The translations under genes were made by a program, and so were the position numbers. Below, piece by piece: positions 40,838-46,683 of a stretch of DNA of 64,000 nucleotides (position 1 is the stretch's first letter; each line of letters starts with the position of its first letter). The stretch comes from Wolbachia endosymbiont of Litomosoides brasiliensis. Its GTDB lineage: Bacteria; Pseudomonadota; Alphaproteobacteria; Rickettsiales; Anaplasmataceae. Where the stretch lies: assembly GCF_013366805.1 (NCBI RefSeq), contig NZ_WQMO01000002.1, positions 1 through 64,000 of the forward strand, in the 5' to 3' direction. Under the pieces are notes generated by a model. That model made no database searches. It saw only the letters and a program-made list of their open reading frames with translations, and was not told the DNA's origin.

Positions 40838-42067
40838 ATGTCTATTGTCTTTGAAATTACTGTGGCTATTCGCTATTTGCAAGCGAAGAGTGCTAAATTT
40901 TGCTCTGTAATGACTTTATTCTCTATTGTTGGTATTGCTCTTGGAGTTGCAACGTTAATAGTGGTGATGTCTGTAATGAATGGGTTTAGAATAAAGTTGC
41001 TTGACTCGATACTTGGCATTGATGGACATATCAATGTTTATTTTGATAGCAACATAAATTCAGATTACCATGCAGTATTAGAATCTGTTGGGAAAATTCC
41101 AGGTGTATTAAAAGCAACTCCTATGACCAATGATCAAGTTATTATTACAGCAAATGGCGGAATTGTTGGTGCTGTAGTGCGAGGTGTATCAGCTAAAGAC
41201 TTGCTCAATAACACTACTGTTAAAAATAGTATAATTATAGGTGATGTGAAAAAATTCGATAAAGGAGTAATAATAGGAGCACGCTTAGCGGAAGTATTAG
41301 AAGTTGGTTATGGAGGAAAAATTATGCTTATATCACCTGAGGGATTTGATGCATTGTTTGGTGAGATGCTAAGGATGAAAGAATATGAAGTCGTAGCCAT
41401 ATTTGACATGGGTATGTTTGAGTATGATAATACTTTGATATACATGCCCATAAAGTCGGCACAGGCCTTTTTTAACTATAGAGATAATGTAAGAAACATA
41501 GAGATATTTGTGGACGACGTTGCTAAAGCTGATAAGCTAGCAAGTACTATAGAAAAAGAAACAGGAATAGAAGCTAAAAGTTGGCAATTGCAACAAAGCC
41601 ACTATTTCAATGCTTTGGAAACTGAAAAGAATGTGATGTTTTTAATTCTTACTTTGATTATAATTGTGGCGGCATTCAATATTGCCTCGAATCTAATGAT
41701 GATAGTACAAGACAAAAAATCTGCGATTGCAATTATGCGCACATTTGGTGCAACAAGTGGAAGTATTATGCGCATATTTTGTATTTGTGGGTTGCTAATT
41801 GGTTTTACAGGAACTTGCCTTGGTTGTATTATAGGTGTTGTTTTTTCCCTCAATATTGAAAATATCAGAATATTTTTAGAAAGCATTACTAACGTCAAGC
41901 TACTTGATCCTATGATATACTTTTTTTCAAATTTACCAATAATATTAGTCCCTCAAGACATAGTGAATATTTCTGCACTTACATTATTCTTATCATTTCT
42001 AGCAGCAGTTGCTCCTGCATTACAGGCAGCTATGCAAGACCCTGCGGAGATATTACGTTATGAATAA
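40838..42067 (+). CDS. lolC: Lipoprotein-releasing ABC transporter permease (LolC/LolE)
   Basis: Inner-membrane subunit that, with LolD, extracts outer-membrane lipoproteins. 409 residues with four membrane helices: one near residues 22-45 (VMTLFSIVGIALGVATLIVV) and three in the C-terminal part (about 266-290, 313-345, 375-400), the MacB/LolC layout with a large periplasmic domain between. The N-terminal RYLQAKSAKF is typical of the family. Alphaproteobacteria usually have one LolC/E gene. The stop overlaps the next gene's start by 8 bases. lolD is not here. Confidence 0.93.
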   Translation: MSIVFEITVAIRYLQAKSAKFCSVMTLFSIVGIALGVATLIVVMSVMNGFRIKLLDSILGIDGHINVYFDSNINSDYHAVLESVGKIPGVLKATPMTNDQVIITANGGIVGAVVRGVSAKDLLNNTTVKNSIIIGDVKKFDKGVIIGARLAEVLEVGYGGKIMLISPEGFDALFGEMLRMKEYEVVAIFDMGMFEYDNTLIYMPIKSAQAFFNYRDNVRNIEIFVDDVAKADKLASTIEKETGIEAKSWQLQQSHYFNALETEKNVMFLILTLIIIVAAFNIASNLMMIVQDKKSAIAIMRTFGATSGSIMRIFCICGLLIGFTGTCLGCIIGVVFSLNIENIRIFLESITNVKLLDPMIYFFSNLPIILVPQDIVNISALTLFLSFLAAVAPALQAAMQDPAEILRYE

Positions 42068-42794
42068 TACTCAGCAAAAATGCATAGGCTGGTTCTTGAT
42101 TGTACTATTATTTGCTAGTTATATTACAATAAATAACATAGTGTTTTTAAAAGCAAATCAACAGGAGGGTGAGAACAAAATAAAGGTTTTGATGGGGAAC
42201 ATAGATGAGCTTAGGATGTTGCTTGAAATTAATCAGTCAAAAATAGAAAAAAAGATATTTGATTTTAAAAGAAGTTTGCTCACTCAATGTGAGCAAATAG
42301 GTGATGGTAGTACAAGGTATAAGAATCTTGCAAAATTACTGTTACTTGTGGTGAAGATGAAGAATTCATTGTTGCAAGAAGCAAAATTTAATAATCATAT
42401 AAATTCAATAAAACCTTTAATATTAGAACTTGACGATCCAGAGATAGAGAATGCAGTAAATGAATTGGAAGGTTTAAAAGAGATAGATACTTTACATGAA
42501 TTGAGTTTGTCTTTTGAAAAAACTATTGCTATTATTAACTACAACAAAGGCACACTGTTTCAAAAAATCATTTCAAATTGGGTAAAAATACGAGTTAAAA
42601 ATGACCCGTTAAGAGCAAAATTCACGGAAATTGAGGAGTCAGTAAACGATAATGATTGGCAAAGTGTGACCGCTACAGTAAGCAGTTTAACAAATCCAGA
42701 ATTCAAACTGTGGCTTAATAAATTGAATGGTTTTATTGTAGCTTCCAAGAATATTTCAATAATATACTATCACCTATTACAATATATCTCATGA
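42060..42794 (+). CDS. Mitofilin (Mic60)/HemX-like membrane coiled-coil protein
   Basis: 244 residues. One membrane helix at residues ~9-27 (GWFLIVLLFASYITI) is followed by a long helical, charged region and a C-terminal helical part (about 180-240, with WVKIRVKN, FTEIEESVNDNDW and LWLNKLNGF). That layout and the tail resemble alphaproteobacterial mitofilin, whose gene normally lies between hemD and hemY; here it is directly before hemY (4-base ATGA overlap). The ATG at 42060 is preferred over an earlier in-frame one at 42009 because it overlaps lolC by only 8 bases. Family assignment rests on architecture and position and is not certain. Confidence 0.55.
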   Translation: MNNTQQKCIGWFLIVLLFASYITINNIVFLKANQQEGENKIKVLMGNIDELRMLLEINQSKIEKKIFDFKRSLLTQCEQIGDGSTRYKNLAKLLLLVVKMKNSLLQEAKFNNHINSIKPLILELDDPEIENAVNELEGLKEIDTLHELSLSFEKTIAIINYNKGTLFQKIISNWVKIRVKNDPLRAKFTEIEESVNDNDWQSVTATVSSLTNPEFKLWLNKLNGFIVASKNISIIYYHLLQYIS

Positions 42795-44008
42795 TTTGTT
42801 TTATAGTTTTCGTTCTCTCATTTTTATTTGGCATATGGGCCAAGATGAGTGGTGAAGTAGTAAAGTTAGAGCTAGGCAGTTATATTATAAGTGTTGATCT
42901 ATATTTCATTATTTTTGCTTGTATAGTTTTATTGTTTTTATTAGTTACACTTGCACACTTTTTTTCTTCCATTTCATCAACGTTTGCCAATATAAAAAGC
43001 AGAAAAAGAGATAGAGAAGAATTGCTTCTTTTTGAAGCCTTTTTTAGCGTAGACTTGGACAATATAGAAAATGCCCACAAGCTAGTTAAAAGTCTAAATG
43101 AGGAAAACGATAGGTTATCTCTAATAAAGATTTTCAACTCAGGTAAGACAGGGAATTATAGCTTTTTCAGTGATGGTTTAACGGATATTGCAAATAAAAA
43201 TCGTAACTTAGCTCTACTCTTAGCCAATAAGCTGATTGCCCACCTCAAACAGGAAAGAACAATCTTTCAAAAATTCATAGAGTATTGCTCTAGCTCAGTT
43301 AATGACAAAATTCTATCTATTCCCTTTCAAATAGAACACTGTACATTGCAAGAAGATTGGGTCAACGCAATTTCTAGATTAAAGGAAGCTATCAAGTTCA
43401 ACGTTTTTCTTCCCTTTGACCATAAAAAGATGTTTGCAGTTTTTTATTGTGCTTTGGCAAAACAATATGAAAGGAAAGGAAACTTTAAAGAGGCTGTGAA
43501 GTCTTTATTTAGAGCACAAGGTTATTGTGCAACTTTTCAACCTATCAATTATTTAAAGGCAGAGTTATATATTAGACTTGGAAAGATCAGAAAAGCTTCT
43601 GCAGTACTAGAGGCAGAGTATATAGTAAACCCTACTCCTCAATCAGCCAAAATTTACATCAGTTTAAATAGTGAAGGTGCTGAAAGGCTATATAACCTAC
43701 GCCCCGATTATTATTTTAGTTATTGTTTACTTGCTTCATCCTTAATTAGTTCAGGTAAATACGATCTTGCAAGTCAACATCTAAATACTGCTATAAAAAA
43801 AGCTAATTATATGTCAATCTACCTTATTATGGTACAGCTCAAGGTTCTGTTACAAGAGCAAGATCAAATAATTCATTGGTTGAACAAGATGGGCTCAGAA
43901 GCTTTGCCTGATCCGTGCTGGAAGTGTAGGAATTGTAACAAAGAACTAGAACGGTGGGATTATAAATGTTCAAGTTGCAATGGCTTTAATTATGTGTATT
44001 ATAGTTAG
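42791..44008 (+). CDS. hemY: HemY-type membrane protein with TPR-like repeats
   Basis: 405 residues. Two N-terminal membrane helices (about 1-17 and 35-60), then the HemY N-domain (RKRDREELLLFEAFFSVDLD) and helical TPR-like repeats. The C-terminal zinc-ribbon-like segment has four Cys (CWKCRNC ... KCSSC). This is the HemY of proteobacterial hem operons, not the protoporphyrinogen oxidase that shares the name; its precise role in haem synthesis is not settled. It overlaps the mitofilin-like gene by 4 bases. Confidence 0.85.
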   Translation: MICFIVFVLSFLFGIWAKMSGEVVKLELGSYIISVDLYFIIFACIVLLFLLVTLAHFFSSISSTFANIKSRKRDREELLLFEAFFSVDLDNIENAHKLVKSLNEENDRLSLIKIFNSGKTGNYSFFSDGLTDIANKNRNLALLLANKLIAHLKQERTIFQKFIEYCSSSVNDKILSIPFQIEHCTLQEDWVNAISRLKEAIKFNVFLPFDHKKMFAVFYCALAKQYERKGNFKEAVKSLFRAQGYCATFQPINYLKAELYIRLGKIRKASAVLEAEYIVNPTPQSAKIYISLNSEGAERLYNLRPDYYFSYCLLASSLISSGKYDLASQHLNTAIKKANYMSIYLIMVQLKVLLQEQDQIIHWLNKMGSEALPDPCWKCRNCNKELERWDYKCSSCNGFNYVYYS

Positions 44009-44108
44009 GTTAGTGGTGATTCCTGGAGGTATAGGTCTATAAACCAGTTTCAACTGTTGATTCAAAAGCAATCTTGTGTTATGTTGGTATATTTTAAGGT
44101 GGCAATTA

Positions 44109-44820
44109 TGCTAACACAGGTTTTCATTGCTAATAGGTCAAATAAAGTGACGTTGCAGAGTTGTTTAATTGTAGAGTGAGAAAGAGAGAATAAATTTGCA
44201 CAGAACGCTCTCAGGCTAGGATTGAGCTCGGGTGAGTATGGTGGGTAGTAATATAATAAGGTTTCTCGTGTTCTTAAATATTGCAGCATTTGTTCAAGAC
44301 ATGTATTCATACAATCTAATTTTACTTTAACCTGTGTTCTAATGCCTTTTTTGATCTACTCATGTCTAATTTTTGAGTGGCAGATCTGCTGACATTCAAG
44401 CCAAATTTTTCCTGGATTCTAATTCTCATTTCTTTAATGGTAATGCTATGGTTTCCTTGCATCCATACTCGGCTTGTTCAAATTGGCTCTGAGATTCAAA
44501 TCTAGCTTTTCCACGATATTGAGAAGGAGAAACAATTTTTCTTCTCTTCTAAATTTTAGGTGCTTCATCCATACAGTTAGTGTATGCATCTTGAAATGCA
44601 ACATATCTTTGTGCTACGACTGTTATACTACGCTTTTTTGCTACAATTACAGCGTTTAGTTTTTTGCACTTTTTTTAGCATTTTTTTGCTGATTCTACGG
44701 CTTTTTCATCTAATAATTTTGATTTTCAAAACGCTACTTAAACCTCGCTATTTTACTTACCCCAGTAAGGCTTCTTTTCCATTATTACCTATCAGTTCTT
44801 TTTATAATGGGAATTAGTAT
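44109..44820 (-). mobile_element. IS630-family remnant, internally deleted
   Basis: Left end decayed (TTTTCATTGCTAATAGGTCA), right end clear (TAATGGGAATTAGTAT). The DDE-end motif (GGATTGAGCTCGGGTGAGTA at ~44219) has been joined to an earlier part of the transposase by deletions. Minus orientation, no frame. Confidence 0.75.
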
Positions 44821-44926: not shown

Positions 44927-45814
44927 CTAATGGATACCCAAGACCCTTATTTCCCACTCAAGTTCAATGTTAAATTTGTTTTTCACTGCATCTCTTACCT
45001 TGTTGCCAAGGTTTTCCAAGTCAGACGCAGTTGCATTATTATAATTAAGTAAAAAATTACAATGTTTCTTGGAAATTTTAGCTCCACCATTATTTAATCC
45101 TCGACAACCAGATCCATCAATCAGTTTCCACGCCTGGCAGTATCTTGGATTTTTGAATATACACCCAGCAGTTTTTCCTCTCACTGGTTGGCTTTTGTTT
45201 TTTTTATCGATAATTTCTTTTAACCTATGTAATATAACCTCATGCCCTGAACTTACCCCTTTAAACTCAGCTTCAATAAAAATCCACTGCCCTTTTAAGC
45301 TGTGTCCACGATAAACATAACCCATTTCTTTGCTGGAGAATTCATATAGATTTCCATCACTTAGATTCACCGCCTTTATGGATTGAACAACGCTTGCAAT
45401 ATCACTACAATATGCACCTGCATTCATTTCTATTCCACCACCAACTGTTCCTGGAATTCCAACTAGAAACTCAAACCCACTAATTTGCTGCTCTCCTGCA
45501 AAGTAAGCGAGGTTGATGAGTGACGCAGCACCACCTGCAACGATAGAGTTATTACTTTTGTATTTAATATATGCGAACTCCTTACCTAATTTTACCGTTA
45601 TTCCTCGGATGCCACCATCACGCACTATTATGTTGGATGTCGCACCGATAACGCTAATTGGCAATTCAGTATTTTTGATTAAAAATGTTAAATCCTCAAT
45701 GTCGCGTGGTTTAAATAACACATCAGCTTGTCCACCAACATTTAACCATGTTATTTTAGACATTAGAACATTATAACGATAGATTCCATGCACTTCCGGC
45801 AAGCTTATAGGCAT
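44927..45814 (-). CDS. murB: UDP-N-acetylenolpyruvoylglucosamine reductase (MurB), Cys at the usual Ser position
   Basis: NADPH-dependent FAD enzyme making UDP-MurNAc. 295 residues. FAD-binding motifs: TWLNVGGQADVLF, VIGATSNIIVRDGG, EFLVGIPGTVGGGIEMNAGAY. In the C-terminal domain, the conserved S-G-S-x-F-K-N-P segment reads TAGCIFKNP, so the proton-donating serine (Ser229 of E. coli) is C218. The glutamate near the end (ELEWEIRVLG) is present. The start overlaps hemC by 10 bases, so the two are co-transcribed. Confidence 0.93.
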   Translation of the reverse strand: MPISLPEVHGIYRYNVLMSKITWLNVGGQADVLFKPRDIEDLTFLIKNTELPISVIGATSNIIVRDGGIRGITVKLGKEFAYIKYKSNNSIVAGGAASLINLAYFAGEQQISGFEFLVGIPGTVGGGIEMNAGAYCSDIASVVQSIKAVNLSDGNLYEFSSKEMGYVYRGHSLKGQWIFIEAEFKGVSSGHEVILHRLKEIIDKKNKSQPVRGKTAGCIFKNPRYCQAWKLIDGSGCRGLNNGGAKISKKHCNFLLNYNNATASDLENLGNKVRDAVKNKFNIELEWEIRVLGIH

Positions 45815-46683
45815 TTTGATTTCAATTCCAGTCCTGCATCCATACCAATTTTTTCTGCATCTTCTATAAATGAGGTACGCTCAGTAAAGTATATATTTTT
45901 TTCGTTTGCCAACATACAATAAAGATGTAGCACATTTTCACTCACATATTTTGCCAGAGCTGCAAGTGGTGTAAAGCACGAACCATTTACTGTCTTCATA
46001 AAGCTGCGTTCTGATCTCACCCTTATAAAAGATTTATTGTTATTAATTTTCTCTAAAAGATCGATAATTTTTACATCATTTTTTCTACATTGAATGCAAA
46101 TTGCCCCCTGTCCTACTGCACTTAACATAGTTTTCGGTGACAATACCTCTGTAATCAAGTAATCTTTTCTTAACCTTATTAATCCTGCTTCAGCTAGAAT
46201 TATTCCATCAAAGTTTTGATTCTGCAGTCTAGTTGTCACATTTCCACGTAGCGGCACTATATTTAAATCTGGTCTAAAATTTAGCAACTGAACTCTTCTT
46301 CTTATTGAGGAAGTTGCAATTATGGCTCGCTGTGGCAAAGATTTAAGACTCTTATACTTACTAGAAATAAATGTATCGTATGGACTTGACCTTTCTAGAA
46401 TACAAGGAATTGTTAAATCTTTTGAAAAAAATGCAGGAACATCCTTTAGCGAATGAACTGCCATATCTATGTTATTCTCAATCAATTCAGTCTCAATTTC
46501 TTTAATGAACAGTCCCTTACCTCCTATTTCAGCGAGGTTCGCATTTGCATATTTGTCACCGGAAGTTTTTATTTTAATGATCTCAACAGATAAACTAGGA
46601 AAAAAGTCCAACAACCTTTGCTTTGCTTCTAAAACTTGAGCAATTGCAAGATTGCTTCCTCTGGTACCCATTCTGATTAACAT
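45805..46683 (-). CDS. hemC: Hydroxymethylbilane synthase (porphobilinogen deaminase)
   Basis: Joins four porphobilinogens into hydroxymethylbilane in haem synthesis. 292 residues. MGTRGSNLAIAQ at 5-16, catalytic aspartate in HSLKDVP (D81), arginine-rich SSIRRR (125-130), and C236 in NGSCFTPLAA that holds the dipyrromethane cofactor. The start can be the ATG at 46683 or the one four codons in, which fits the family equally. hemJ and hemY are elsewhere in the window. It is first gene of a hemC-murB pair. Confidence 0.96.
   Translation of the reverse strand: MLIRMGTRGSNLAIAQVLEAKQRLLDFFPSLSVEIIKIKTSGDKYANANLAEIGGKGLFIKEIETELIENNIDMAVHSLKDVPAFFSKDLTIPCILERSSPYDTFISSKYKSLKSLPQRAIIATSSIRRRVQLLNFRPDLNIVPLRGNVTTRLQNQNFDGIILAEAGLIRLRKDYLITEVLSPKTMLSAVGQGAICIQCRKNDVKIIDLLEKINNNKSFIRVRSERSFMKTVNGSCFTPLAALAKYVSENVLHLYCMLANEKNIYFTERTSFIEDAEKIGMDAGLELKSKCL

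Follow-up and report, generated by a model that had tools for sequence, protein, structure and literature searches.

The gene described here, referred to as X, lies in a stretch of 64,000 nucleotides from the Wolbachia endosymbiont of Litomosoides brasiliensis (contig NZ_WQMO01000002.1, positions 1 to 64,000), which is called the window below. The open reading frame (ORF) list gives X an ATG at 42060 and a frame end at 42794 on the plus strand, which encodes 244 residues. It stands between lolC/E and hemY in a tightly packed row: the end of lolC/E overlaps the start of X by 8 bases, and the end of X overlaps hemY by 4 bases. Judging from the overlapping frames, X and hemY are probably co-transcribed as one operon. 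The hydropathy of the protein peaks at residues 12-30, with a mean Kyte-Doolittle value of 2.21, and the best window past residue 40 reaches 1.03. A sequence-only reading of this DNA had described a 244-residue protein with one N-terminal membrane helix, encoded directly before hemY, and both features were confirmed. It had also placed the gene in the hem neighbourhood, which is correct for hemY downstream and incorrect for hemD, since the gene upstream of X is lolC/E and the hemD of the same genome is on a different contig (G000:C21).

Mitofilin, or Mic60, shapes the inner folds of mitochondria. The same reading had noticed a mitofilin-like end in X, and here the family profile comparison, a profile search with mitofilins from outside X's family, the pattern of residues and the gene position all agree with it. 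Our interpretation, to which we give a probability of about 0.78, is that X is the mitofilin orthologue of Wolbachia, Ehrlichia and close relatives, that it lies beyond the standard domain models, and that it would have a membrane role together with HemY.

The homology was evaluated by comparing families of sequences. The X alignment comprised 50 orthologues with E < 1e-9. The main reference, A6, is an alignment and hidden Markov model (HMM) of 39 Rickettsiales mitofilins, taken from the 57 then in hand and with none from X's family; a protein from that family, at locus L162, was among those left out. A6 took the place of an earlier mitofilin HMM, MIT2, which had included L162. With hhalign, the 50 X sequences matched A6 at P 1.1e-15 (probability 98.6, 180 columns) and matched 19 mitofilins from loci found with the Pfam model PF09731 at P 1.8e-10 (probability 96.9, 154 columns). 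A twentieth PF09731 locus, L022, was left out of the 19-protein set because its gene is split over two frames. Thirty class-level Mic60 proteins, from other orders of the same class, were matched by the X family in the same register (P 7.6e-6, 153 columns).

Subsets of the X family matched A6 separately and in a single register: the Wolbachia-group at 1.1e-14, the Anaplasma-like members at 2.8e-12 and the Ehrlichia-like members at 1.7e-9. These group labels are our own and denote genus g1, genus g4, and genera g2 and g3, respectively; named records back the labels for g1 and g3. The aligned part of X is residues 91-243, which is the C-terminal domain rather than the coiled coil. Among the controls against A6, the best of 100 block shuffles reached 0.0056, hemY 0.031 and lolC 0.11. 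Against the 19-protein set, the best of 100 column shuffles reached 0.079, the best of 100 block shuffles 0.011, the reversed profile 0.054 and hemY 0.0099.

The A6 HMM, run with filters off, ranked X first of the 288 frames in the window, at 1.6e-10 with a match over residues 59-239, and the next frame scored 0.17. When it was run against 1139 ORFs it matched all 50 X members, 39 of them at <1e-5 and 45 at <1e-3. Every match at <1e-3 was X, an ORF before hemY or a broken piece of one, and the best ORF that is neither X nor before hemY scored 0.0011. The A6 profile also matched a Mic60 of known structure: chain 7pv1, in which Mic60 is fused to Mic19, was hit at 5.7e-13, and this match covers the domain core to which X aligns. 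On these profile comparisons, X is almost certainly a mitofilin homologue.

Gene position was then compared across 131 Rickettsiales genomes. PF09731 scored above its cut-off in 18 of them and at E <= 1 in 54, with many of the matches in coiled coils. Within the 20 PF09731 loci fetched from Rickettsiales, the mitofilin gene lies before an adjoining hemY in 19, the exception being L021; at L022, the locus with the split gene, 313 bases separate the two. The same order was seen in 27 of 30 loci from other orders of the class. A search with an 18-sequence hemY alignment matched 98 of the 131 genomes at 1e-5, some by tetratricopeptide repeats (TPRs) or the cysteine ribbon only, and in 53 further hemY loci (L110-L162) MIT2 matched an ORF in 39 at E <= 10 and in 38 at E < 1e-3. 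The gene upstream of such ORFs was tested in ten cases and was hemD in eight, a phosphoesterase in one (L162) and a DsbA-like protein in one (L134). In X's family, lolC/E occupies the place of hemD. X is very probably the orthologue of the gene of the hemD-mic60-hemY locus.

One family of genomes, f12, probably Rickettsiaceae, has an ORF of 201-258 residues before hemY at eight loci (L138, L141, L142, L144-L147, L159), which followed hemD in the one case tested. These eight ORFs scored between 6.8e-6 and 0.2 against the A6 HMM, and their family profile gave P 4.3e-4 against A6 and 0.45 against the class-level Mic60 proteins. The f12 ORF is possibly a mitofilin in a still more reduced form.

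X was found at E < 1e-9 in 50 of the 67 genomes of its family, and none of these copies is interrupted by a stop. The named records with X comprise one Wolbachia metagenome-assembled genome, at 66% identity, and four from Ehrlichia, at 27-29%. The ratio of nonsynonymous to synonymous substitution rates (dN/dS) is 0.11-0.17 for X against eight relatives, a ninth being saturated; for comparison it is 0.10-0.18 for hemY and 0.13-0.20 for lolC, each against nine relatives. X is under purifying selection, and its frame is not a product of chance, because it is kept in 50 of 67 genomes at these ratios.

The presence of X follows that of hemY. All 50 genomes with X carry full-length hemY matches, and genome G141 has hemY with L162 before it, so that the gene is present wherever hemY is present (51/51). 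The remaining 16 of the 67 genomes, some of which are incomplete assemblies, have neither an intact X nor an intact hemY. In two reduced Wolbachia-group genomes, G160 and G169 (loci L163 and L164), an intact lolC stands beside remnants of X and of hemY, which have both decayed in place. The sequence-only reading had the gene as often missing in reduced Rickettsiales, which fails for X's family. Its description of X as a shortened copy holds: the 39 mitofilins of A6 have 263-439 residues, and X keeps the C-terminal domain.

The residues of X were compared with those of other mitofilins. A stretch of the A6 HMM around position 205 lies opposite residues 2-19 of the 7pv1 chain; the score is weak, the match is colinear, and the stretch was taken as lipid-binding site 1 (LBS1). 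In the A6 HMM alignment X keeps the leucine and the aromatic residue of this LBS1-like helix, and the LBS1 column holds F in 34/34 Wolbachia-group and 8/9 Ehrlichia-like sequences. W174 is kept across the X family, and the neighbouring motif arginine is not. HMM column 288 is W in 29 of the 39 mitofilins and in 34/34 Wolbachia-group X; the column is unaligned in 6/9 Ehrlichia-like and 1/7 Anaplasma-like X, and W218 is invariant in a 22-sequence alignment (A2). The protein at L162, from another genus of X's family, has 204 residues and keeps both W-V-K-I-R-K and the LBS1 F. Judged by its residues, it is a natural intermediate between X and other mitofilins.

Structures were predicted with AlphaFold from six sequences. 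The full-length model has low confidence (pLDDT 51.1). The model of residues 84-244 reached pLDDT 69.4 and pTM 0.64, with residues 171-209 at <50. This weak model has eight helices, whose order is compatible with the mitofilin map (a2-a8, with LBS2 as a5) given in PMC12631773. The coiled coil of X is tentative, since helix 41-79 is seen in the low-confidence model only.

Positions in the window of the genes around X and of the parts of X
Feature	Position	Strand	Basis
lolC/E, lipoprotein-releasing ABC transporter permease	40838-42067	+	TIGR02212 E 1.2e-142 (NCBIfam)
X, 244-residue protein, very probable diverged mitofilin/Mic60 homologue	42060-42794	+	ORF, hhalign, A6 HMM, orthologues
X residues 12-30, single transmembrane helix	42093-42149	+	hydropathy; helix 14-30 in low-confidence model
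X residues 41-79, long helix, probably coiled coil	42180-42296	+	model only, pLDDT <50 there
X residues 84-243, putative mitofilin domain, eight predicted helices	42309-42788	+	hhalign register, HMM match 59-239, domain model
X residues 143-159, putative LBS1 counterpart with F152	42486-42536	+	alignment near HMM position 205
X residues 174-178, W-V-K-I-R, counterpart of mitofilin L-V-x-I-R-K	42579-42593	+	alignments
X W218, counterpart of mitofilin tryptophan	42711-42713	+	A6 HMM column 288
hemY, 405 residues: HemY_N, TPR repeats, C-terminal four-cysteine ribbon	42791-44008	+	Pfam, NCBIfam, alignment

A number of results weigh against reading X as a mitofilin with a membrane role. Pfam gave no PF09731 match for X at E <= 10, its only match being T3SchapCesA at 1.7; a PF09731 search of the source genome gave zero matches at E <= 10; and nine relatives of X, run together with an unrelated ORF, L078, gave no mitofilin in Pfam at E <= 10. 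The X profile alone found no Mic60 among solved chains, 7pv1 included. With default filters, the A6 profile reached the X locus in just 4 of the 67 family genomes (G175, G141, G132, G075), and unrelated stretches elsewhere scored up to 5.2e-5, as well as three of these four loci did. Foldseek (best E 0.096 and 0.85) and VIA (best Z 10.3 and 9.5), each run on the two models, which are too weak to decide the matter, returned generic helical bundles and listed no Mic60. Of the 39 mitofilins, 31 have the arginine of the L-V-x-I-R-K motif; most X sequences have K, Q or E in its place or do not align there, and the aromatic of the LBS1 column is L in 5/7 Anaplasma-like sequences. For the helix at 145-159 the hydrophobic moment is 0.36, a value that 11% of shuffles reach, so that its amphipathy is not significant. 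Finally, the 67 genomes in which X and hemY share their fate are related and do not represent independent events.

Because the default-filter search reached so few loci and matched off-target stretches as well, the homology claim was based on the profile-profile and unfiltered comparisons. The PF09731 miss is read as a limit of that model, since just 16 of the 39 Rickettsiales mitofilins in A6 reach E 1e-3 in Pfam. The mitofilin profile search that the sequence-only reading had in mind gave a divided answer, negative with PF09731 on X and on the genome, and positive with profile-profile comparison and the A6 HMM. Profile methods recognise X where standard models fail, which suggests that these reduced bacteria still have the gene, in a form too diverged for the models.

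Other searches returned little. NCBIfam gave only UpsF (0.0093) and DpsA (0.11) for X, both far under cut-off. Single-sequence searches with X gave noise only, including PhuZ at 0.12, and matched no Mic60 chain directly; a phage search with X gave no matches. In the ORFs of 79 loci, an HMM of the X family matched X members alone at E <= 10, and a sequence-level search in this direction is therefore too weak. ORFs at the weak matches L011-L016 were re-scored by phmmer. The ORF L078 (genome G147, 0.9 Mb) had matched X at 0.008 and was rejected as a different protein with no adjoining hemY. PF09731 matches in other Wolbachia-group genomes (G129, at 0.067) lie elsewhere, within the section of the model that describes the coiled coil. 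PMC6026926 names a Wolbachia gene, wVul_0085, 'mitofilin' and lists Smc for the same gene; the label is probably a coiled-coil match, because Smc is listed too.

Several observations concern the neighbours of X. In the Wolbachia-group genome G149 (L042:1498-3450), lolC and X form one frame of 650 residues, which is either a fusion or a sequencing indel. The HemY_N match in the gene after X has E 3.3e-5, under the Pfam cut-off, and TPRs are matched as well. Its four C-terminal cysteines (hemY residues 379-396, window 43925-43978) are invariant in the 18-sequence alignment, and its C-terminal half matches LapB models in NCBIfam, which, with the cysteine ribbon, suggests a mix of HemY and LapB. 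Directly after hemY is a short minus-strand ORF (44062-44310) with no Pfam match, which, going by a motif, resembles the end of an IS630-type transposase. The gene hemC is found 1.8 kb downstream on the opposite strand (45805-46683), adjoining murB, and is possibly the rest of the hem neighbourhood.

If X works as Mic60 does, it would be anchored in the inner membrane by its one helix, and its short coiled coil would reach into the periplasm. The C-terminal mitofilin domain would self-associate and would lie on the membrane through the LBS1-like helix with F152. In this way X could locally shape the inner membrane or hold it near the outer membrane, and, made with HemY from one operon, it would serve the same process. 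That X works together with HemY seems rather likely to us; that it has retained a membrane-shaping or contact-site function, an argument by analogy with Mic60, we regard as an even bet.

The most serious alternative is that X is a mitofilin which no longer shapes membranes and whose sole remaining role is to serve HemY as a scaffold or as a partner in assembly, for example in heme-related or envelope assembly. We consider this a real though lesser possibility. It would account for the shared fate of X and hemY in 67/67 family genomes and for their overlapping frames, and intracytoplasmic membranes are not a known feature of the bacteria that carry X. A scaffold that does not bend membranes would also be compatible with the residues that have been lost, namely the motif arginine and, in Anaplasma-like members, the LBS1 aromatic. 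However, Wolbachia-group and Ehrlichia-like sequences still have that aromatic, and the alignment spans the whole domain and not just one stretch of it.

That X is an unrelated coiled-coil protein with a single membrane span, which replaced mitofilin in place and resembles it through helical-composition bias, is very unlikely. Such a protein would fit the lack of anything credible in Pfam and NCBIfam, and the mitofilin profile does give weak matches to coiled-coil stretches at other places. The part of X that aligns is not coiled coil, though, and block shuffles that preserve local periodicity get only to 0.0056, compared with 1.1e-15 for X; the three subsets that match separately in one register and the intermediate L162 within the family also speak for descent from a mitofilin. 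Least probable of all is that X is a decaying gene heading for loss: 16 of 67 family genomes have no intact copy, two of them with visible remnants, and X is shorter than other Rickettsiales mitofilins, but its dN/dS is like that of hemY and lolC and none of the 50 copies has an internal stop.

If X is a diverged mitofilin, the copy retained in Wolbachia, Ehrlichia and relatives makes PF09731-based calls of absence in reduced Rickettsiales unsafe, and X makes these small-genome cells a natural setting in which to study what Mic60 minimally does and how it is linked to HemY. The Anaplasmataceae are not known for inner-membrane folds. A broader picture, which we consider less likely than not, is that Mic60 persists in these obligate intracellular bacteria in a compact and cryptic form, kept and lost with HemY. 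Its ancestral job would then have been not the making of folds but an envelope or contact-site function coupled to HemY, and the shaping of cristae would have grown out of this later. A literature search found no description of a gene of the X type; several Mic60 papers (2015-2023) were outside its coverage, and an earlier description is possible.

Mic60 is a subunit of the mitochondrial contact site and cristae organizing system (MICOS), and is held to derive from the alphaproteobacterial ancestor of mitochondria (PMC12631773, PMC12136173). Like the alphaproteobacterial Mic60 recognised by PF09731 at hemD-mic60-hemY loci, X sits directly before hemY, has an N-terminal membrane helix and aligns over the C-terminal domain in the same register. 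Unlike it, X has no long N-terminal extension and linker and is PF09731-negative, its family has lost the motif arginine, and lolC/E rather than hemD lies upstream. Mitochondrial Mic60, as in 7pv1, is tied to X via the 39-sequence mitofilin profile, with no direct sequence match from X. A parallel is found in the euglenozoan 'cryptic mitofilins' Mic34 and Mic40, whose domain, like that of X, is visible by profile-profile comparison only, after rapid divergence; as PMC12631773 describes them, these are soluble eukaryotic proteins, whereas X is bacterial and spans the membrane once.

Gammaproteobacterial HemX (PF04375) also sits by hemY, which was found in 25 of 25 HemX loci (L202-L226). The X family did not match 24 HemX proteins significantly in hhalign (P 0.046), and X had no PF04375 match in Pfam. 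The same 24 proteins matched A6 at P 3.1e-7, with 31 confidently aligned columns around a core of L-x-x-L-V-x-V-R, and matched class-level Mic60 at P 0.0014, compared with 0.041 for the best shuffle. HemX and Mic60 may share ancestry, as this profile similarity hints. If the ancestral job of Mic60 was indeed coupled to HemY, the weak similarity of HemX to mitofilin at the same gammaproteobacterial place would push that origin deeper.

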